The notes below the pieces were generated by a model, which was not told where the DNA came from, searched no databases, and saw only the letters and a list, made by a program, of their open reading frames with translations. A program made the translations under genes and the position numbers. From the NCBI RefSeq assembly GCF_009363435.1, contig NZ_CP045354.1, positions 3,376,501 to 3,440,500 on the forward strand: DNA of 64,000 nt, in the 5' to 3' direction. Shown one piece after another: positions 39,735 to 49,310 of the stretch. Every line of letters begins with the position of its first letter. Within the stretch, counting starts at the first letter, position 1. Source of the DNA: Labrenzia sp. THAF82. GTDB lineage: Bacteria; Pseudomonadota; Alphaproteobacteria; Rhizobiales; Stappiaceae.

Positions 39735-40880
39735 TCAACTCCTTATGGACGGGTGCCAGAATGTGACGGCCCGCTCCACCAGCGCCACAGCGCCGTAGAA
39801 CAAGGATCCTGCAAGAGCGGCAACAGCAATTTCCGCCCACACCATATCGACGTTCATGCGACCGACTTCCGTTGAGATCCGGAACCCCATGCCGACGATT
39901 GGAGTGCCAAAGAATTCAGCAACAATGGCTCCGATCAGAGCCAGGGTCGAATTGATTTTCAACGCATTGAAGATGAACGGCATGGCCATGGGCAGGCGCA
40001 ACTTGAAGAGCGTTTGCCAATAGCTGGAGGCATATGTACGCATCAAATCGCGCTGCATGGCATCTGACGCGGCAAGGCCCGAAACAGTGTTCACCAACAT
40101 TGGAAAGAACGTCATGATGATGACGACCGCCGCCTTGGATGGCCAATCGAAGCCGAACCACATTACCATGATCGGTGCAACGCCGATGATGGGCAAAGCG
40201 GATACCAGATTGCCGATGGGCAGAAGGCCTCTTCTCAGAAACGGTACCCGGTCAACAAGGATTGCAATCAGAAATGCCGAACCGCAGCCAATTATGTAGC
40301 CTGCCAGAACCGCTTTAAGGAAAGTCTGCTGGAAATCAGCCCATAACGTCGGGACAGAATTGATGAGCCGCACCCAGATTTCAGAAGGGGCAGGCAACAG
40401 TACTTTCGGCACACCTGCACCGGTCACCACCAGTTGCCAAAGAACAAGTATCGTGATGCCGAATATGGCCGGTATCGCCAAATTCACGATGCGGGCCATA
40501 GTCTGCGAACGGCTTTTCCAGATTGCCAGTCTCTCGACAAAGAGCCAGGAGGCTGCCCAGGTCGCAATTGCCAGTGCCCAGAAACCCAGTTTCGCTTCTC
40601 CGACATGCTGCGACACAGTTGAAACCAACAGCCAGGCCGACGCGGCAGCAACAAGCCCGAGTATGAGATCCCCGATCCAGTTGCGCATGAAACCAAGTTC
40701 ATACCGGACACCTGCAATGGCTAGGATCACCAGACAAGCTGCCAATCTCGGCACGTCCATGATGCCGTAGTCAGGCCCGAAGATTGGGCTGAAAAGCCCG
40801 ACAATCACCATCAGCACAACAAACCAGGCAAGAAGGGCCGGCATGTCTAATCTGCGTTTGGCAGCTGCTTGTGCACTCAT
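39735..40880 (-). CDS. ABC transporter permease with extra N-terminal helices
   Basis: This 381-residue inner-membrane permease belongs to the SsuC/TauC/ThiX-type (BPD_transp_1) superfamily. The canonical six-helix domain occupies about 135-375. The cytoplasmic coupling (EAA) segment is here the stretch MRTYASSYWQTLFKLRLPMA. About 130 residues with four additional hydrophobic segments precede it, which is longer than a standard SsuC-type permease. Its start overlaps the end of the neighbouring permease gene in ATGA. Together with that permease, the ATPase upstream and perhaps the small protein downstream it would make an importer. A pyrimidine-type substrate is inferred from the operon. Confidence 0.9.
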   Translation of the reverse strand: MSAQAAAKRRLDMPALLAWFVVLMVIVGLFSPIFGPDYGIMDVPRLAACLVILAIAGVRYELGFMRNWIGDLILGLVAAASAWLLVSTVSQHVGEAKLGFWALAIATWAASWLFVERLAIWKSRSQTMARIVNLAIPAIFGITILVLWQLVVTGAGVPKVLLPAPSEIWVRLINSVPTLWADFQQTFLKAVLAGYIIGCGSAFLIAILVDRVPFLRRGLLPIGNLVSALPIIGVAPIMVMWFGFDWPSKAAVVIIMTFFPMLVNTVSGLAASDAMQRDLMRTYASSYWQTLFKLRLPMAMPFIFNALKINSTLALIGAIVAEFFGTPIVGMGFRISTEVGRMNVDMVWAEIAVAALAGSLFYGAVALVERAVTFWHPSIRS

Positions 40881-41800
40881 CTTGCCATGCCCATACGTTT
40901 GAGGGTGTGTTTTTCCAAAACGCCTATCAGCGCGACAAGAGACCCGGCAAGGAAGGCTGCCATGAGCAATGCGGACCAGATCTGAACAGTTTGGCCATAG
41001 TAGGAGCCTGCTAGAAGTCTTGCCCCCAGTCCTGCAACGGCGCCAGTTGGCAATTCACCGACAATCGCTCCAACCAGTGAAGCGGCCATGCCGATCTTCA
41101 TGGAGGTGAATAGAAACGGCACTGCATAGGGAAGGCGGAGCTTCCAGAATGCCTGAACGCGGGTGGCGGAATAGGTGTGCATCAAATCCATGTGGATCAC
41201 TTCAGGCGACCGCAATCCCTTTACCATGCCGACGGCAACCGGAAAGAAGGAGAGATAAGTTGAGATAAGGGCCTTCGGCAGCAATCCGGAAATCCCGACC
41301 GCATTCAGAACGACGATGATCATCGGCGCGATGGCCAGGATCGGGATGGTTTGCGAGGATATGATCCACGGCATTAGGGATTTGTCGAGTACGCGAGAAT
41401 GAACAATGCCGATCGCCAGCAGAATGCCGAGCGTTGTTCCGATAAGAAATCCCATCAAGGTCGAAGAAAGCGTAATGCCGCTGTGATAGATCAGCGAGCG
41501 TTTTGATGTGATCTTCTTCTCAACCGTTGTTTTCCAGATCTCTATGACAACCTGATGAGGTGCCGGCAGAACTGGGCGTTCCTGGGCAAGTGTGTCGGTT
41601 ATCAGCTGGCTGACAGGAACATCGGTCTGGCTCGCACGCTCATAGATTTCCTGCTGAAAGGGCGTGTTGAGTGCAACGGCAGCTATGTACCAGATCGCTA
41701 GAATGGCAGAGACGACCACGATAACGGGTCCGACCGTTCCGGACATCAGGCCAGAAAAAGGGTTGGTGCTGCGATTTCCGGGGAGAGAAGTGTCTGTCAT
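40877..41800 (-). CDS. ABC transporter permease (SsuC/TauC-like)
   Basis: This 307-residue permease is of the same superfamily as its neighbour. An N-terminal helix (about 22-44) is followed by a polar insertion of roughly 55 residues before the main membrane domain. The EAA-type loop is MHTYSATRVQAFWKLRLPYA. The ATG at 41800 is used because GGGGAG lies just upstream; an in-frame TTG at 41824 is less likely. Its ATGA start overlaps the stop of the GNAT gene, and its stop overlaps the next permease, so three genes are translationally coupled. Two different permeases imply a heterodimeric membrane channel. Confidence 0.9.
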   Translation of the reverse strand: MTDTSLPGNRSTNPFSGLMSGTVGPVIVVVSAILAIWYIAAVALNTPFQQEIYERASQTDVPVSQLITDTLAQERPVLPAPHQVVIEIWKTTVEKKITSKRSLIYHSGITLSSTLMGFLIGTTLGILLAIGIVHSRVLDKSLMPWIISSQTIPILAIAPMIIVVLNAVGISGLLPKALISTYLSFFPVAVGMVKGLRSPEVIHMDLMHTYSATRVQAFWKLRLPYAVPFLFTSMKIGMAASLVGAIVGELPTGAVAGLGARLLAGSYYGQTVQIWSALLMAAFLAGSLVALIGVLEKHTLKRMGMAR

Positions 41801-42258
41801 TGATGCTCCCCGGATGGCTTCCAAGAAAATAGTATGTCCGGAAGGTTCTCTTCGTTGTCGCCATCAGTTCGGCGAACCTCGTGGAAGCCACGCATTGAAT
41901 AAAACTTTTGTGCATCAGTATTGGCAACGAAGGTCCACAAGCTGACACCATCGGAAAAATCTTGTTTCACGTTATCAAGTAGCCGGCTGCCCAATCCGTC
42001 TTTGCGGGCACTTTTTGCGACATACAGCCCTGTGACGAAACCATCGCTACTTGTTGCTGAGAAGCCCTGAACAAATCCGTCGCTGTCTTTTGCAACCAAC
42101 ACACAGCGGTTTGAATACACAAAATCAACATAGTGCCGCACAACATCATCGTGTGGGTGGACGCGCGGCATCCATGGCGTTTCGTCAATCCAATCGTTCA
42201 AAATGTTGCCGCAAGCTATCATGTCTTCTTCGACCGCGCTTTTGATCTCAATTACCAT
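41797..42258 (-). CDS. GNAT-family acetyltransferase embedded in the ABC operon
   Basis: This GNAT of about 153 residues starts at MVIEIKSAVEEDMIACGNIL. The acetyl-CoA loop is KSARKDGLGSRLLD, after VTGLYVAKS. The C-terminal strand-helix SLWTFVANTDAQKFYSMRGF with the FYxxxGF motif is typical. The ATG at 42258 is chosen because it begins the fold; an ATG at 42276 overlaps the ATPase stop. It sits between the ABC ATPase gene and the first permease gene and overlaps the latter by 4 bp, so it is co-expressed with the importer. It may acetylate a transported compound or an intermediate, but no substrate can be read from the sequence. Confidence 0.85.
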   Translation of the reverse strand: MVIEIKSAVEEDMIACGNILNDWIDETPWMPRVHPHDDVVRHYVDFVYSNRCVLVAKDSDGFVQGFSATSSDGFVTGLYVAKSARKDGLGSRLLDNVKQDFSDGVSLWTFVANTDAQKFYSMRGFHEVRRTDGDNEENLPDILFSWKPSGEHQ

Positions 42259-42265
42259 GGTCGCT

Positions 42266-43105
42266 TCAGTCTTCATAAGAATGACCGGCACGAAGGCCGT
42301 CACGTACCCTGTGGGCGATCTTCAGGAATTCCGGTGTTTCGCGAATGTCCAAGTTTCTCTCGCGCGGCAAATCGCTGTCGATAACGTCATAGATGCGGCC
42401 CGGGCGAGGGCAGAGCACAACGATTTTGGTCGAGAGGAAAACGGCCTCCGGAATTGAGTGGGTCACGAAAACGACGGTCTTGTTGGTTTTTGCCCACAAT
42501 TGGAGCAGCTGTTCATTTAAATGGTCGCGAACGATCTCATCCAGGGCACCGAATGGCTCGTCCATGAGAAGCAGATCCGGTTCAACGGCCAGCGCACGTG
42601 CAATGGAGGCGCGTTGCTGCATGCCGCCGGAGAGCTGCCAGGGATATTTCTTTTCAAACCCGGACAGGTTCACAAGATCCATGTTCCGGGCGATCCGCTC
42701 CTGCTGCTCGGTTTTGGGCAGTCCCATGATTTCAAGGGGCAGGGCGACATTCTTGGCGATCGTGCGCCAGGGATAAAGAGCTGCGGCTTGAAATACATAG
42801 CCATAAGCACGGTTCAGGCGGGCCTTCTCCGGTGAGACGCCGTTGACTGTTATTGATCCGGCCGTTGGCCGTTCCAGATCGGCGATCACGCGCAACAGCG
42901 TGGTCTTGCCGCAACCGGACGGGCCGATAAACGAAACGAAATCACCTTCGTCGATCTTGAGGTCGATGTCGGAAAGGGCGTGAACCGGTCCGTCATTGGT
43001 TTCGAACGTCAGCGACAGATTGTCGATGTCGATAACGCGTTTCGGGCTGGCGCTGGTCGTCTGTTCCACCGTTTCGGTGTCCTTTGCGCTGGCAAGAGCA
43101 GTCAT
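42266..43105 (-). CDS. ABC transporter ATP-binding protein (SsuB/TauB-like)
   Basis: This 279-residue nucleotide-binding subunit has Walker A GPSGCGKTT, the signature LSGGMQQRASIARAL and Walker B LLLMDEPFGALDE. The switch His is in VFVTHSIPEA. The N-terminal 30 residues are a Thr/Ser-rich extension. Sequence type is that of the sulfonate/taurine/pyrimidine (NMT1/THI5-linked) importers. It lies downstream of the dihydropyrimidinase gene with a 95-bp gap holding a strong hairpin. No substrate-binding protein gene occurs in the cluster, so the binding partner must be encoded elsewhere. Confidence 0.94.
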   Translation of the reverse strand: MTALASAKDTETVEQTTSASPKRVIDIDNLSLTFETNDGPVHALSDIDLKIDEGDFVSFIGPSGCGKTTLLRVIADLERPTAGSITVNGVSPEKARLNRAYGYVFQAAALYPWRTIAKNVALPLEIMGLPKTEQQERIARNMDLVNLSGFEKKYPWQLSGGMQQRASIARALAVEPDLLLMDEPFGALDEIVRDHLNEQLLQLWAKTNKTVVFVTHSIPEAVFLSTKIVVLCPRPGRIYDVIDSDLPRERNLDIRETPEFLKIAHRVRDGLRAGHSYED

Positions 43106-43167
43106 TCATTTCCTCGCTATCGAGCCATTGGAAAACTGGCCGACAAACGGGCCCTCCCTTGGCACGG

Positions 43168-43191
43168 TTCCCTCCCCAGACGGGGAGGGAA
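43168..43191. promoter_or_regulatory. Strong hairpin between dihydropyrimidinase and ABC ATPase genes
   Basis: Perfect 10-base arms TTCCCTCCCC and GGGGAGGGAA with a 4-base loop lie 10 bases past the dihydropyrimidinase stop (read on the minus strand). No T-run follows on the minus strand, so a classical terminator is unlikely. A stabilising or attenuating intercistronic stem is more plausible and could set different levels of enzymes and transporter. Confidence 0.65.
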
Positions 43192-43200
43192 TATCTTCAG

Positions 43201-44658
43201 TCAGACACCGCTGGCCGGAATGCCTGTGCGTTCCACTTTGCGCGGAGCTGTCAGTTCTTTCCACGTCGAAAGTGCTTTGTTCACAGCCTGGAACGGTTCA
43301 CGGGCGACAAACTCACCATGGCCCTGTTTGTGATTGACGGTGCCGTCTTCGACCGCGACACGTCCACGTGTCAGTGTGTATCGAGGAAGCCCTTTGACAG
43401 CCTTGCCTTCAAAGACGTTGTAGTCGATGGCTGACTGCTGGTTGGTAGCTGTGATTGTCTTTTCCTTTTGCGGATCCCAGACCACAAGGTCGGCGTCCGC
43501 TCCAACCAAAACAGCTCCTTTTTTCGGATAGATATTCAGGATCTTTGCAATATTGGTTGAAGTAACCGCGACAAATTCGTTTGGCGTCAACCGACCGGTT
43601 CCAACTCCGTAAGTCCAGAGCATTGGCATGCGGTCTTCCAAACCGCCGGTGCCGTTGGGGATCTTCGTGAAATCCCCCACGCCAGTACGCTTCTGGTCGG
43701 TTGTGAAAGCACAGTGGTCCGTCGCGACCACCTGAAGGGAACCCGAGGCCAGGCCTGCCCACAGACTGTCCTGGTGCTTCTTGTCGCGGAACGGCGGAGA
43801 CATCACGCGGCGGGCGGAATGGTCCCAATCATGATGATAATATTCGCTGTCATCGAGTGTCAGGTGCTGGATCAAAGGTTCGCCATAAGCGCGAATGCCA
43901 TTCTGCCTTGCCCGACGGATTGCTTCATGTGCCTGTTCGGACGAGGTGTGGACGATGTAAACAGGGACACCTGCCATATCGGCGATCATAATAGCGCGGT
44001 TGGTTGCTTCCCCTTCAACTTCCGGTGGGCGAGAGTGTGCATGGCCTTCGGGGCCATTGTGACCTTCTGCCAGCAGCTTTTGTTGAAGCGTTGCGACAAC
44101 GTCGCCGTTCTCAGCGTGGACCAGGGGCAAAGCGCCAAGTTCAGCGCAGCGCTGGAAGGAGGCGAACATCTCATCGTCATTCACCATTAGGGCGCCTTTA
44201 TACGCCATGAAGTGTTTGAACGTGTTGATGCCCTTTTTCTGGACCACTTCCTGCATGTCGTTAAAGACCTGCTCACCCCACCAAGTGATGGCCATATGGA
44301 AGGAATAGTCGCAATGCGCCATTGTGGACTTGTTGTCCCACATCTGCAGCGCTTCGAGCAGCGACTGACCGGGTGAAGGCAAGGCAAAGTCAACGACCAT
44401 TGTCGTGCCGCCGGATAGGGCTGCACGGGTCCCGCTGTCGAAATTGTCAGATGAGAATGTGCCCATGAAAGGCATTTCCAGATGCGTGTGCGGATCAATG
44501 CCGCCCGGCATGATGTAGCAACCGGTCGCGTCCAGGGTTTCGTCACCTGAAAGGTTCGGGCCGATTTCAACAATACGGCCGTCTTCGATCTTCACGTCGG
44601 CTTCGTAGGACAGGTCAGCAGTGACAACAGTGCCACCTTTGATCACTTTGCTTGCCAT
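43201..44658 (-). CDS. hydA: Dihydropyrimidinase / D-hydantoinase
   Basis: This enzyme opens the ring of dihydrouracil or dihydrothymine (and 5-substituted hydantoins) to N-carbamoyl-beta-amino acids. The 485-residue amidohydrolase has the metal-binding GGIDPHTHLEMPF and the carboxylated Lys in FKHFMAYKGALMVND. Further metal ligands are in HAENGD and the IVHTSSEQAHEAI segment. The ATG at 44658 gives MASKVIKGGTVV and has GAAAGGGAA upstream; a longer TTG start has no support. It is the second step of reductive pyrimidine catabolism and sits with the third-step and transaminase genes on the same strand. Confidence 0.95.
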   Translation of the reverse strand: MASKVIKGGTVVTADLSYEADVKIEDGRIVEIGPNLSGDETLDATGCYIMPGGIDPHTHLEMPFMGTFSSDNFDSGTRAALSGGTTMVVDFALPSPGQSLLEALQMWDNKSTMAHCDYSFHMAITWWGEQVFNDMQEVVQKKGINTFKHFMAYKGALMVNDDEMFASFQRCAELGALPLVHAENGDVVATLQQKLLAEGHNGPEGHAHSRPPEVEGEATNRAIMIADMAGVPVYIVHTSSEQAHEAIRRARQNGIRAYGEPLIQHLTLDDSEYYHHDWDHSARRVMSPPFRDKKHQDSLWAGLASGSLQVVATDHCAFTTDQKRTGVGDFTKIPNGTGGLEDRMPMLWTYGVGTGRLTPNEFVAVTSTNIAKILNIYPKKGAVLVGADADLVVWDPQKEKTITATNQQSAIDYNVFEGKAVKGLPRYTLTRGRVAVEDGTVNHKQGHGEFVAREPFQAVNKALSTWKELTAPRKVERTGIPASGV

Positions 44659-44714
44659 CGTCGTTTCCCTTTCGTTCACATCAGTTTCACCGGCAGATTT
44701 GCCCGGTTGATCAT

Positions 44715-45494
44715 TCAATTGGGTTCAGGGCACCAAAGCGCGGGAGCCGTCAGGTCCCGGTCTTTGAGGATCATCGAGATCCCGTATTTTTCAGCGATGG
44801 TGCACGCTTTGGTGAAGTGTATCGGCTTGTCGATGTATTCCGCATCAAAGATGGCCTTGCCTGCGTCATTATAGGCGCTGTAAGCCTTGCAGGTTCGGTC
44901 CTGATAACAGCTTTCCGCAATGGCAAAGTCGAGCACGTCAATCAGTTTCTCGGTCAGGTCCGGTACATTCTTCTGTCCGATCTTCAAACCGAGACCGCGC
45001 GCCGTGCCGGCAAGCAAGCGAATATAGGCGACCGCGTGCTGCTCTGTGATCGGGAAGCCGCTGTCATTGTCATGGACATCCATGTTGTCTGGCTCAATTG
45101 CATCGAACCCCATCGACTTGCAACTTTCGAAACGGGCTGCCATGAGCGGTAACAGGACATCGAGGCGGCGAATGTCGAGAAAGCGTTCATCGGGCCAGTC
45201 GTCATAAGTGTTGCCGATGATTTCTGACGGAAAATTTGCCCTGTCGGGTGATGTTCTTTCAAGTGTACCCACACTGACATAGCAAATCGTCTTGATGCCT
45301 TTGGATTTCAGAGCGGCCAAGTCTTCGGGCGATACGATAGACGGATGCAGATCCAGCACCTTGACGGGCCTATTGAGCTCAGCCGGTTCCGTTAACTGCC
45401 AATCCCAGCTGTCGCCGGCGGAAAAAGCGAAGGCGGGCAGGGACAGCATGAAAACGCTGCCTGCCAATGCCATCGCTTTTCCAAAAAATCGCAT
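44715..45494 (-). CDS. Secreted GH114-like (polygalactosaminidase-type) glycosidase
   Basis: This 259-residue protein has a Sec signal peptide (RFFGKAMALAGSVFMLSLPA, likely cleavage after AFA). The mature part is a TIM-barrel of the GH114 / endo-alpha-1,4-polygalactosaminidase type. Visible motifs are SWDWQL near the start, TICYVSVGTLE, and the acidic active-site segment GFDAIEPDNMD. IGQKNVPDL and CYQDRTCKAY follow. Its ATG overlaps the stop of the preceding amidohydrolase in TAATG, so translation is coupled. A predicted exported glycosidase is unexpected inside a pyrimidine-breakdown operon; its substrate here is unknown. Confidence 0.85.
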   Translation of the reverse strand: MRFFGKAMALAGSVFMLSLPAFAFSAGDSWDWQLTEPAELNRPVKVLDLHPSIVSPEDLAALKSKGIKTICYVSVGTLERTSPDRANFPSEIIGNTYDDWPDERFLDIRRLDVLLPLMAARFESCKSMGFDAIEPDNMDVHDNDSGFPITEQHAVAYIRLLAGTARGLGLKIGQKNVPDLTEKLIDVLDFAIAESCYQDRTCKAYSAYNDAGKAIFDAEYIDKPIHFTKACTIAEKYGISMILKDRDLTAPALWCPEPN

Positions 45495-46750
45495 TATTCG
45501 ACGATCTCCGCCGTTTCCACCACGGCATGGAAAAGAACATCCGCACCGGCTTTCGCCCAGTCTTTGGAGATTTCTTCTGCCTCGTTGTGCGACAGGCCGT
45601 CGACACACGGACACATGATCATTGCTGTCGGGGCGACTTTGTTGATCCAACACGCATCATGTCCCGCGCCGGAAATGATATTCTGGTGGGAGTAGCCAAG
45701 CCGTTCGGCAGCATTTCTGACCGCGTCGACGCAGCCCTGGTCGAACTCTACCGGATCAAAACCGCCGACTTTTTCGAATTCGACTTCAAGTCCCATTTCG
45801 TCGCAGATTTTCTTGCCACCGATTTTCAGCCGGTCTTCCATGTCCTTGATAACGGCAATGTCGGGCGACCGGAAGTCTATGGTGAAGACGGTTTTGCCGG
45901 GGATCACGTTTCGCGAGTTCGGGTAGACGTCGATGTGTCCAGCCGCGCCAACAGCATGAGGGGCGTGCGACCAGGCAATTTCGTCAACCAGTTCCAGAAT
46001 GCGCGCCATGGCAAGCCCTGCATTCTTGCGCATTGGCATCGGCGTCGAACCGGTGTGGCTGTCTTTTCCGGTCACGGTCACTTGCGTCCAGGAGAGCCCC
46101 TGACCGTGTGTCACAACGCCAATGTCCTTGCCTTCAGCTTCCAGGATGGGCCCCTGTTCAATGTGAAGCTCGAACATGGCGTGCATCTTGTCCTTGCGAG
46201 CGCCAACTTCTTCGTCGCCCACCCAGCCGATGCGCTTCAGTTCATCACCAAACTTCTTGCCTTCGGCGTCTTCGCGATCATAAGCCCAGTTCTGTGTGTG
46301 AACACCGGCAAATACACCGGAAGCCAGCATGGCTGGGGCAAAACGCGTGCCTTCTTCATTGGTCCAGTTGGTCACGACAATCGGATGTTTGGTCTTCAGA
46401 CCAAGGTCATTCATCGTGCGCACAAGTTCCAACCCGCCTAGAACTCCGAGGATCCCATCGTATTTACCGCCTGTTGGCTGGGTATCGAGATGAGACCCGA
46501 CATAGACCGGCAGAGCATCGGGATCCGTTCCCGGCCGGGTCATGAACATGTTGCCCATAGTATCAACGGCCATCGAAAGTCCGGCCTCTTCGCACCATTT
46601 TTGAAACAATTTACGGCCTTCTGAATCCTCATCAGTCAGGGTTTGCCGGTTGTTTCCGCCAGCGACACCCGGGCCGATCTTTGCCATTTCCATCAGGCTG
46701 TCCCAGAGCCTGTCCGGATTGATCTTCAAGTTTTCGCCTGGAGCGGCCAT
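45494..46750 (-). CDS. Zn-dependent N-carbamoyl amino acid amidohydrolase (beta-ureidopropionase type)
   Basis: This 418-residue enzyme is of the M20/allantoate amidohydrolase family. Metal ligands are in GSHLDTQPTGGKYDGILG (His, Asp), NWTNEEGTRFAPA (Glu pair), ELHIEQGPILE (His) and AGHDACWI (His). Family members cleave N-carbamoyl-beta-alanine, N-carbamoyl-L-amino acids or allantoate. With a dihydropyrimidinase next door and a beta-alanine-type aminotransferase upstream, the beta-ureidopropionase reaction (giving beta-alanine, CO2 and ammonia) is the best guess. AGGAGA precedes the ATG. It follows the aminotransferase by 48 bp. Confidence 0.92.
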   Translation of the reverse strand: MAAPGENLKINPDRLWDSLMEMAKIGPGVAGGNNRQTLTDEDSEGRKLFQKWCEEAGLSMAVDTMGNMFMTRPGTDPDALPVYVGSHLDTQPTGGKYDGILGVLGGLELVRTMNDLGLKTKHPIVVTNWTNEEGTRFAPAMLASGVFAGVHTQNWAYDREDAEGKKFGDELKRIGWVGDEEVGARKDKMHAMFELHIEQGPILEAEGKDIGVVTHGQGLSWTQVTVTGKDSHTGSTPMPMRKNAGLAMARILELVDEIAWSHAPHAVGAAGHIDVYPNSRNVIPGKTVFTIDFRSPDIAVIKDMEDRLKIGGKKICDEMGLEVEFEKVGGFDPVEFDQGCVDAVRNAAERLGYSHQNIISGAGHDACWINKVAPTAMIMCPCVDGLSHNEAEEISKDWAKAGADVLFHAVVETAEIVE

Positions 46751-46798
46751 TTGCGTGTCTCCTAGAAAGGTGTCGGTGTCTCGTTGACAAGCTTTTGT

Positions 46799-48145
46799 TC
46801 AATCTATCGCATTCAAAACACTGCGCAATTTGCTGAACAATTCGTCTATCTGGTCCTTGGAGATGATCAACGGTGGTGACAGGGCAATGATATCGCCCGT
46901 GGTGCGGATCAGGATACCGTCGTCATAGGCCTTCAGGAAGGCCGAGAATGCTCTTTTGGTCGGTTCTCCGGCAATCGGTTCCAGTTCAACTGCGCCGATC
47001 AGACCGAGATTGCGTATGTCGATGACATGCGGGCAGTCTTTCAAGGCATGCAGACCGTCTTCCCAATGTTGGGCAAGCTCGGCGGCGCGCGTCAGAAGAC
47101 CTTCTTCTTCATAAGTATCAAGGGTCGCAAGAGCCGCTGCGCAAGCGACTGGGTGGGCGGAATAAGTATAGCCGTGGAACAATTCGATCATGTGTTCCGG
47201 GCCGGTCATGAAAGCGGTGTAGATATCGGAAGAGCAGAATACCGCTCCCATGGGCACAACACCTGATGTCAGTCCTTTGGCCGTTGTGACCAAGTCTGGT
47301 GTGACGCCGAAGAAGTCTGTCGCAAAGGGCGAACCAAGTCTGCCGAAACCTGTGATAACTTCGTCGAAAATCAGCAGAATTCCGTGCTGGGTACATATTT
47401 CGCGAAGCCGTTCCAGATATCCTTTGGGGGGGATCAGAACTCCTGTTGAACCGGCCACGGGTTCAACGATCACTGCCGCAATCGTCGACGGGTCGTGTAG
47501 CTGGATGATGCGGATCAGATCTTCCACATATTCTGCGCCATTTTCCGGCATCCCCCGGGAAAATGCATTGCGGTCCGGGTCGTGCGTGTGCCGCATATGG
47601 TCGACCCCCGCCAGCATGGTGCCGAAGGTCTTGCGGTTCGCGACGATGCCGCCAACTGAGATGCCGCCAAAACCCACACCGTGATACCCGCGCTCACGCC
47701 CGATCAGGCGTGTTCGTGTCCCCTGACCAATGGAACGTTGGTAGGCCAGCGCGATTTTCAGTGCTGTGTCGACGCTCTCCGAGCCGGAGTTAGTAAAAAA
47801 GACATGATCAAGAGGAGAGGGCATCAATGCAGCCAGTCTGGCTGCCAGTTCAAATGCCTTCGGATGCCCCATCTGAAAGGCGGGCGCATAGTCGAGTGTC
47901 GCGATTTGTTGCTGCACGGCCTCAACGACCTTTGGGCGCGAGTGGCCCGCATTGCAGCACCAAAGACCTGCAGTTCCGTCAAGCACCTGACGCCCCTCTG
48001 CGGTCGTGTAGTGCATATCCTTGGCCGAAACGAACATGCGCGGTGTTTGCTTGAACTGACGATTTGCCGTGAACGGCATCCAGAATGCTTCAAGATTGTT
48101 TGTGGCAGCGTGGCTCGATGCTGCCGGAGATGCCGGTGATGACAT
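46799..48145 (-). CDS. Omega-amino acid (beta-alanine)--pyruvate aminotransferase
   Basis: This 448-residue class III PLP aminotransferase has the PLP Lys in LVTTAKGLTSGVVPMGAVF. Other motifs are FFTNSGSESVDTALKIA, IFDEVITGFGRLG and FHGYTYSAHPVACAAAL. The N-terminal FWMPFTANRQFKQTPRM resembles beta-alanine:pyruvate transaminases. It would convert beta-alanine from uracil to malonate semialdehyde. The ATG at 48145 has a perfect AGGAGG; an in-frame TTG at 48178 has none. It is the first gene of the minus-strand array and faces rutR across a region with RutR-type palindromes. Confidence 0.93.
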   Translation of the reverse strand: MSSPASPAASSHAATNNLEAFWMPFTANRQFKQTPRMFVSAKDMHYTTAEGRQVLDGTAGLWCCNAGHSRPKVVEAVQQQIATLDYAPAFQMGHPKAFELAARLAALMPSPLDHVFFTNSGSESVDTALKIALAYQRSIGQGTRTRLIGRERGYHGVGFGGISVGGIVANRKTFGTMLAGVDHMRHTHDPDRNAFSRGMPENGAEYVEDLIRIIQLHDPSTIAAVIVEPVAGSTGVLIPPKGYLERLREICTQHGILLIFDEVITGFGRLGSPFATDFFGVTPDLVTTAKGLTSGVVPMGAVFCSSDIYTAFMTGPEHMIELFHGYTYSAHPVACAAALATLDTYEEEGLLTRAAELAQHWEDGLHALKDCPHVIDIRNLGLIGAVELEPIAGEPTKRAFSAFLKAYDDGILIRTTGDIIALSPPLIISKDQIDELFSKLRSVLNAID

Positions 48146-48430
48146 GCGTCCTCCTTGCGACCCTTTTGCTGCGCTCAAGGTCGACTGTTGATCTCAAAAA
48201 GAAAGGATGATGAGCAACGGAGCATTGGCGGCAATGCAACGCCGATCAGATCCTCTCCCTACACTGTCCCTCATGATCCTCGGGCGGGCTTTTGCCTCTT
48301 CCTGACGATCCTTCTTTCTGGATGGCTCACGCCAATCACGGCTTGTCGCCGGATCACGACCATGATGGTCAGATGCTGCCGAACGATCAAGAGTTGCCCA
48401 TTGCGGGCGCTTTGGTGATCGACTAGCCTT

Positions 48431-48446
48431 CTGACCATCTGGTCAA
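48431..48446. promoter_or_regulatory. RutR-type operator 1
   Basis: CTGACCATCTGGTCAA matches the RutR palindrome TTGACCAnnTGGTCAA at all but the first base. It lies between the divergent aminotransferase and rutR genes. On the minus strand its TTGACC could also be a -35 element, so RutR binding would block that promoter. Confidence 0.85.
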
Positions 48447-48463
48447 TTTACCCTAGGAGGGAT

Positions 48464-48479
48464 TTGACCAAATGGTCAA
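48464..48479. promoter_or_regulatory. RutR-type operator 2 (perfect palindrome)
   Basis: TTGACCAAATGGTCAA is a perfect 7+2+7 palindrome that matches the established RutR consensus exactly. It begins 33 bp from operator 1, about three helical turns, so two dimers could sit on the same DNA face. It is about 150 bp upstream of the rutR start, which suggests autoregulation as well as control of the enzyme operon. Confidence 0.92.
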
Positions 48480-48498
48480 GATGCAAATCCAATCGACA

Positions 48499-48515
48499 TG
48501 ACCAATTTGTGGTCA
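48499..48515. promoter_or_regulatory. Third RutR-like element with wider spacer
   Basis: TGACCA and TGGTCA half-sites face each other as in the two operators, but are separated by five bases instead of two (excluding the inner bases). The half-sites are spaced about 34 bp from operator 2. It may be a weak or degenerate site. Confidence 0.45.
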
Positions 48516-48629
48516 CCTGCCGATGCGACGCGCAACAACAGGTCCGGGCGGGCTGCTTCCATGAGGGGAATCAGCTTACATTTTGGACATCTAGATTGGC
48601 GCCCACATGGGCTGAAACGGACGAATTTG

Positions 48630-49310
48630 ATGACAGGTCTGAGCGGTCAGGATACGGCATCACTTAAACCGGGCGGCATGAGCCGCATTCAGGAAAAGAA
48701 CAGAACACTGATACTGGAGGCCGCGCTTGCCGAGTTTTCCCGAAAGGGATTTTCAGGGGGAACCGTAGAGCGAATTGCCGCGGAAGCGGGCATGTCGAAA
48801 TCCAATCTTCTCTATTATTTCTCTTCAAAGGAAGCGATCTACAAGGCAACTTTGGCGCATATTCTGGAAGTGTGGCTCGCGCCGTTGAAGACGTTGAAGC
48901 CAGATGGTGAACCAGCTGCGGAGCTCGCAGACTATATTCGGCAAAAAATTGAAATGTCGGCGAGATTTCCAGAAGCGTCGCGTCTTTTTGCAAACGAAGT
49001 GATGCAGGGAGCGCCTCAAATCCTCCCGATACTGGAAACGGATCTGAAGCGTCTCGTGGAAGAAAAGAGCCAGGTGATTGAAAACTGGATTTCGGCCGGA
49101 AAGATGCAACAGGTCAATCCGCTTCACCTGATTTTCACCATATGGGCGACCACACAACACTATGCGGATTTTTCCGTCCAGATCAGAGCGCTAACGGGCA
49201 AAGACCTGAGTGACCCCGGATTTCATATGGAAACGGTTCAAGCAGTTACAACGCTGATCCTGAACGGTGTCGGGTTGACCTTGCCTGAGGCAGCCGATCA
49301 AAACCAATGA
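48630..49310 (+). CDS. rutR: Pyrimidine-responsive TetR-family regulator RutR
   Basis: This protein of about 226 residues resembles E. coli RutR along its whole length. The helix-turn-helix reads VERIAAEAGMSKSNLLYYFS and is followed by SKEAIYKATLAHILEVWLAP. The C-terminal ligand domain includes ASRLFANEVMQGAP and HLIFTIWATTQHYADF, which are also strongly RutR-like. RutR binds uracil or thymine, which releases it from DNA. Matching RutR palindromes lie directly upstream. An ATG at 48630 is preferred; one at 48678 would trim the poorly conserved N-terminus, and more upstream starts give no family sequence. Its stop overlaps arfB by 4 bp. Confidence 0.95.
   Translation: MTGLSGQDTASLKPGGMSRIQEKNRTLILEAALAEFSRKGFSGGTVERIAAEAGMSKSNLLYYFSSKEAIYKATLAHILEVWLAPLKTLKPDGEPAAELADYIRQKIEMSARFPEASRLFANEVMQGAPQILPILETDLKRLVEEKSQVIENWISAGKMQQVNPLHLIFTIWATTQHYADFSVQIRALTGKDLSDPGFHMETVQAVTTLILNGVGLTLPEAADQNQ

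Follow-up and report, generated by a model that had tools for sequence, protein, structure and literature searches.

The window analyzed here, a 64,000-nt stretch of the Labrenzia sp. THAF82 genome, contains an operon for the reductive pyrimidine route on the minus strand and, divergent from it as originally predicted, a gene for a RutR-type regulator on the plus strand. The nearest named relatives of this genome belong to Roseibium (formerly Labrenzia), and Stappia is found among the more distant ones. The genes, and the elements of the region between them, are arranged as follows:

39735-40880, minus strand: ABC permease 2 (profile match)
40877-41824, minus strand: ABC permease 1 (profile match)
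41797-42303, minus strand: GNAT acetyltransferase (profile match)
42266-43105, minus strand: ABC transporter ATPase (profile match)
43201-44658, minus strand: dihydropyrimidinase (TIGR02033, 596 bits, cut-off 393)
44715-45500, minus strand: GH114-family protein gene, within the operon (PF03537, 218.5 bits)
45494-46750, minus strand: hydantoinase/carbamoylase-family amidase, expected to be beta-ureidopropionase (TIGR01879, 395 bits, cut-off 204)
46799-48145, minus strand: omega-aminotransferase, AptA-like, expected to be beta-alanine:pyruvate aminotransferase (NF052567, 765 bits, cut-off 500)
48431-48446, no strand: S1, RutR-type operator CTGACCATCTGGTCAA, spanning the expected start of the operon transcript
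48450-48455, minus strand: operon -10, TAGGGT, between S1 and S2
48464-48479, no strand: S2, RutR-type operator TTGACCAAATGGTCAA, holding the operon -35
48474-48479, minus strand: operon -35, TTGACC, inside S2
48499-48515, no strand: S3, TGACCA-N5-TGGTCA, weakly conserved and off-phase, of doubtful function
48630-49310, plus strand: rutR (TetR family, 226 aa), its start conserved among 30 loci

At family level, the reductive (Pyd) set is represented by PreA, dihydropyrimidinase, ureidopropionase, and beta-alanine aminotransferase. No RutA over the family cut-off was found in this genome (best 47 bits against a cut-off of 498, with the E. coli control positive), and the reductive route is probably the only one that RutR serves here. 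RutA exceeds the cut-off in one of the 45 genus genomes, G055. The gene in question (G055:C87:164219-165280, 628 bits) is a true RutA, and the genome has the operator pair too (L060), so that a single regulator may govern both uracil routes in G055. The GH114 gene is also present in L068 and L069, and the gap between the carbamoylase and dihydropyrimidinase genes is too small for it in L072 or L080.

The palindromes noticed in the intergenic region are real, as both a check of the sequence and their conservation confirm. S2 at 48464 matches exactly what we take to be the RutR consensus, and S1 at 48431 differs from it by one base, in agreement with the original prediction on both counts. In each of them, the TGACCA/TGGTCA half-sites are separated by a 2-bp spacer, as in the RutR box. 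Boxes of the TTGACCANNTGGTCAA type thus occur at target promoters, namely S2, S1, and the box of a solute-binding protein gene described below. If up to three mismatches are allowed, the window contains six matches to the 16-mer (0.83 expected), a total not attained in any of 100 shuffles, while the looser pattern TGACCANNTGGTCA with up to three mismatches has 46 against 28.7 expected. Exact TGACCANNTGGTCA is found at five places in the whole 6.395-Mb genome (a single contig), two of them at the S1/S2 locus, and the reversed-pattern control at none. Two of the remaining exact boxes, at 1981392 and 4350159, are located within an SDR gene and the gene for riboflavin synthase and were set aside as probable chance occurrences. 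Center to center, S1 and S2 are 33 bp apart, or ~3.1 turns if 10.5 bp per turn is assumed.

A comparison of related genomes had been named as a check in the original prediction, and it bears both sites out. The core set consists of 30 loci with the nearest RutR, from 45 genus (Roseibium) genomes, and includes the window and one same-species locus. Both half-sites of S2 are exact in 30 of 30 of these loci, half 1 of S1 in 24, and half 2 of S1 in 29, counts that are not independent of one another, as relatives share ancestry. S1 is degenerate in five loci and displaced in one, L064, where an intact site, counted among the six half-1 misses, sits 1 bp further outward. Among 36 named loci, mostly Roseibium and Stappia, the two boxes (each required to match at least 10 of 12 letters) are exactly 33 bp apart in 32, although this set is not independent because it consists largely of the same genomes as the others. 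The four loci without the pair are L174 (S1 too weak), L193 and L201 (one box each), and L203 from Actibacterium (no box). Another 26 intergenic regions, mostly from more distant species, contain the pair in 19 cases, 17 of them at 33 bp and the others at 31 bp (L084) and 34 bp (L099); no pair was found in L072, L079, L080, L087, L088, L096, and L100. In one pattern search, no boxes were seen in the nine loci with the most distant RutR (L089-L095, L101, and L102; 44-51% identity). The contrast between box and flanks (commonest base 0.67-0.68 in the flanks) derives from sequences preselected for having the box.

The pair frames a promoter-like arrangement of the operon. On the minus strand, all 30 genus loci have TAnnnT at a distance of 18 bp from the TTGACC in S2, and the outer half of S2 doubles as the -35. 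In the further regions with at least one box, TAnnnT is present at the corresponding place in 25 of 25 (16-18 bp past the -35 position) and TTGACC in 22 of 25. S1 overlies the expected operon start, estimated from the -10 at about 48443. A strict sigma-70 scan reported no promoter at the locus, and the promoter claim is therefore drawn from conservation. In L072, L079, and L087, TTGACC persists where the S2 palindrome itself is degraded or gone, so S2 is probably conserved in part as a -35. Judged by sequence, conservation, and promoter placement, S1 and S2 are canonical RutR boxes.

Other genes of the pathway are located elsewhere in the genome. PreA (747.8 bits, cut-off 335) is encoded at about 113.5-114.8 kb, and the GltD-like gene directly before it is taken as PreT by its position and family. 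These two genes encode the enzyme that opens the route, and 3.3 Mb separates them from rutR; by contrast, preA and rutR are no more than about 3 kb apart in L085, L086, L096, L098, and L100, five of the more distant loci. The sequence TTGACTAnnTGTTCAA is found 94-102 bp upstream of the preT match start in 29 of 30 loci, the remaining locus ending at a contig edge. This box is off consensus at two of 12 fixed positions, and two-mismatch matches are common genome-wide (416, against 230 for the reversed pattern), so the case for it is one of conservation. About 8 kb past preA, adjacent to molybdopterin-oxidoreductase and DmsC-like genes, lies another candidate member:

G000:C1:123209-124228 (L032:6207-7229): orphan NMT1/THI5-type solute-binding protein gene, with a conserved RutR-type box upstream

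An exact box, TTGACCAnnTGGTCAG, precedes this gene by 142-260 bp in 30 of 30 loci examined, and 45 genomes have the gene. Its promoter follows the same layout as that of the operon, TTGACC-N18-TAGATT and then the box over the expected start. The distance between preT and the binding protein gene is at most 13.2 kb in all 34 genomes that have both on one contig, and the two are on different contigs in seven. Four genus genomes (G031, G043, G056, and G057) have the binding protein gene without a close preT. Since the operon encodes an ATPase and two permeases, with no solute-binding protein among its scanned genes (39735-48145), the unlinked protein is a likely partner and probably serves the ABC transporter of the operon. 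The RutR box also suggests a substrate class for this otherwise unnamed protein.

The third element, S3, was seen where the original prediction placed it, with both half-sites and a wider spacing. It reads TGACCA-ATTTG-TGGTCA, and its spacer of 5 bp instead of 2 bp places the half-sites 11 bp apart center to center, compared with 8 in the RutR box. Both half-sites are exact in nine of the 30 genus loci, and the best-kept part of S3 is its core AATTT, retained in 28 and missing in two. By eye, several more distant species have a TGATGAATTTGTGATCA-like sequence at this position. It is possible, if on balance doubtful, that S3 is a conserved promoter element of rutR, with YAATTT as the -10, and not a RutR site. 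The retention of AATTT and the location of S3 on the rutR side are consistent with such a role; however, no convincing -35 was seen by eye 16-18 bp upstream, and the sigma-70 scan gave no promoter.

The regulator itself combines a TetR N-terminal HTH domain (PF00440, 56 bits) with a YcdC-type C-terminal domain (PF08362, 182 bits). Its score is barely over the cut-off of NF011584 (HTH-type regulator RutR; 231.7 bits, cut-off 230) and under that of TIGR03613 (RutR equivalog; 258 bits, cut-off 368). The best PDB matches are E. coli RutR, with a gap-free alignment; among named regulators, the nearest comes from an uncultured Roseibium (95% identity). The uracil contacts of E. coli RutR are given in PMC10891134 as W77, Y97, W167, Q171, and Q179. 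All five are kept in the window RutR, as are K52 and K62. The reductive route also handles thymine and dihydropyrimidines, which, together with the TIGR03613 score, would suit a regulator with real sites that responds to something other than uracil, such as thymine, dihydrouracil, or a different intermediate of the pathway. We regard this as rather improbable, with the full set of uracil-contact residues arguing against it.

As for how the sites may act together, all three had been expected at spacings of about 33-34 bp, on the same helical face, with cooperative repression or looping as a possibility. The spacing holds for S1-S2 (33 bp) and fails for S2-S3, which is 35.5 bp (3.4 turns) because the spacer of S3 is longer. 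S1-S3 is 68.5 bp, or 6.5 turns with 10.5 bp per turn assumed, so that S1 and S3 are on opposite faces and the common face is not supported. Looping fares no better: S3 is out of phase, its half-sites are wrongly spaced and its conservation is poor, and 33 bp is too short for a DNA loop. Three equal RutR sites on one helix face, cooperating or looping the DNA, would account for three TGACCA/TGGTCA elements inside 85 bp and for the retained AATTT core, but not for half-sites 3 bp wider than those of the RutR box, for 6.5 turns between S1 and S3, for S3 half-sites both exact in just 9 of 30 loci, or for the TGATGAATTTGTGATCA-like sequence that, by eye, replaces S3 in several more distant species. 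We consider this arrangement very unlikely, its looping and single-face components being rejected on phasing and conservation. S3 is probably not a third equal operator, and we do not count it as a RutR operator.

Taken together, the computed sites, their conservation, the promoter-like geometry, the family and ligand residues of the regulator, and the unlinked boxes make it likely, in our judgment, that S1 and S2 are a RutR operator pair in the promoter of the reductive operon, with uracil-relieved steric repression by two dimers and with unlinked regulon members; it is from these that we infer binding, repression, uracil as the inducer, cooperativity, and the transporter partnership. With one RutR dimer bound at S2, the -35 (TTGACC) would be masked, and a second on S1, 33 bp (~3.1 turns) away, would cover the transcription start. 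Both would exclude RNA polymerase until RutR is released on binding uracil or a close analogue. In trans, the regulon would reach two unlinked promoters with one box each, those of preTA and the solute-binding protein gene, and the same two dimers probably regulate rutR itself as well. That S1 and S2 serve rutR autoregulation only, with the operon controlled mainly by a leader RNA or by nitrogen control, is very unlikely, because in spite of the conserved structured leader (below) and the possible share of the -35 in the conservation of S2, the pair encloses both minus-strand promoter elements of the operon, -35 and -10, in all 30 loci, and unlinked pathway genes have boxes as well.

This operator pair resembles the divergent rutR-rutABCDEFG region of E. 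coli in its TetR-family regulator, whose uracil pocket has identical residues, and in the type of box; there, according to PMC10891134, RutR recognizes a palindrome of ~16 bp at the rutR/rutAG promoters, and uracil impairs binding. Unlike in E. coli, RutR is directed here at the reductive route, this genome has no RutA above the cut-off, and the promoter is framed by two boxes with a spacing of 33 bp. PydR of Pseudomonas putida is likewise a RutR-like regulator on the reductive pathway, described as a repressor of the dihydropyrimidine dehydrogenase gene (Hidese 2012, by its title as cited in PMC7332683), whereas the dehydrogenase genes here are unlinked and have a diverged box. In addition, RutR regulons for pyrimidine catabolism have been reconstructed in 68 proteobacterial genomes of 13 taxa, with taxon-specific motif changes, according to excerpts of that work (Leyn 2016, RegPrecise; PMC5343134). 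The proposed "rewiring" of RutR toward the reductive route is thus known in kind, since RutR-like control of this pathway is already in print, and the operator pair is a further example of such control, with a clearly resolved layout. Among the matches listed in a literature search that covered few subscription papers, none pointed to a paper on this operator pair or the leader RNA. What emerges is a testable regulon in a marine genus, with two strong boxes at the operon, one strong box at the solute-binding protein gene, and one diverged box at the dehydrogenase genes, and all three promoters point to one uracil sensor despite loci 3.3 Mb apart.

The analysis of the operon also exposes a leader RNA without an Rfam match:

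48146-48443, minus strand: operon 5' leader, about 298 nt, its start estimated from the -10
48251-48353, minus strand: conserved structured RNA element with two short hairpins, CCAGA(GA), a variable hairpin, GGGA(A)CAG, and GGGAGAGGA

In 27 loci, conserved CCAGAGA, GGGAACAG, and GGGGAGAGGA alternate with hairpins that change in sequence and retain their pairing. A covariance model built from four loci and run on 59 sources matched all 31 near-RutR sources (the window, L039-L066, L068, and L069) at E 0.0021 or better, although the four training loci were bound to match. Among sources at a greater distance, L072, L073, and L076 matched at E <0.01 and L080 and L099 weakly, and in the rest of the 59 no model match could be placed in the leader. 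From 42 model matches up to E 1, alignment A5 retained 34, up to E 0.004; alignment A1 is without L038, L062, and L066. Across the 34 aligned matches, 91.2% of cells pair, and both sides have changed in 101 cells, whereas shuffles gave 24.8 and slid controls 6-15; these counts lean towards the structure because the alignment was fitted to it. Free of this bias is a comparison of the sequence between the two anchors with dinucleotide shuffles of itself: the real sequence folds better, with a mean z of -2.8 and 28 of 37 loci below -2, these loci having been preselected for both anchors (27 of 30 genus loci and 10 of 22 others). Folding of the whole leader was no better than shuffles in the window (z -0.9), and z was -2.24 in L048.

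Genomes that have the element carry one copy, located next to rutR and upstream of the aminotransferase gene. A refined model finds a single copy in this genome and matches 36 of 87 family genomes, all within the genus (36 of 45); 34 of these were already in the model, and the two new ones are a same-species genome and G039. At the order level, a search of 397 genomes gave seven matches, all in the genus. At the class level, 385 genomes gave three matches besides that of the window's own genome, with E values of 8e-4 to 9e-3, about chance level, and the best of them (L206) sits, by eye from the translations, among unrelated genes. Rfam returned no match up to E 5 in 48000-48800, so a known riboswitch was rejected. 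In 10 relatives searched up to E 1, the sole match was to a microRNA outside the leader (L062:2973-3033, E 0.28, 26 bits, gathering 80). An intrinsic terminator was rejected, with none found in 48100-48700, as was an upstream reading frame, the start codon of which is by eye not conserved. We also rejected a Shine-Dalgarno switch: the stretch from GGGGAGAGGA to the ribosome site pairs with that site no better than shuffles do (mean z -0.25; below z -1 in 5 of 28 loci, a 29th being skipped), and between the ribosome site and GGGGAGAGGA the pairing reaches a modest mean z of -1.2, below -1 in 14 of 28 loci. Conceivably, the element acts as a riboswitch that senses a metabolite of the pathway, or an RNA-binding protein recognizes it, and among the features described here it is the one that may be new. 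Control at two levels, by RutR at the promoter and by a cis-regulatory RNA in the ~300-nt leader, is plausible, although we lean slightly against it.

Many of the loci L070-L099, from more distant species and genera, carry tandem pairs of RutR-type genes (for example, L070:4330-5612). In 15 aligned tandem loci, the five uracil-contact residues are found in both copies, and the recognition helices differ (mostly SKSNLLYYF versus PKANLHYYF). Although the tandem loci L086, L087, and L088 have symmetric boxes and shared ancestry also speaks against it, the combination of tandem genes with asymmetric boxes (TGACCA/TGACCG) hints at a heterodimer. Such boxes occur in 15 of 18 tandem loci and 3 of 8 single loci of the further-region set, compared with none of the 30 genus loci.
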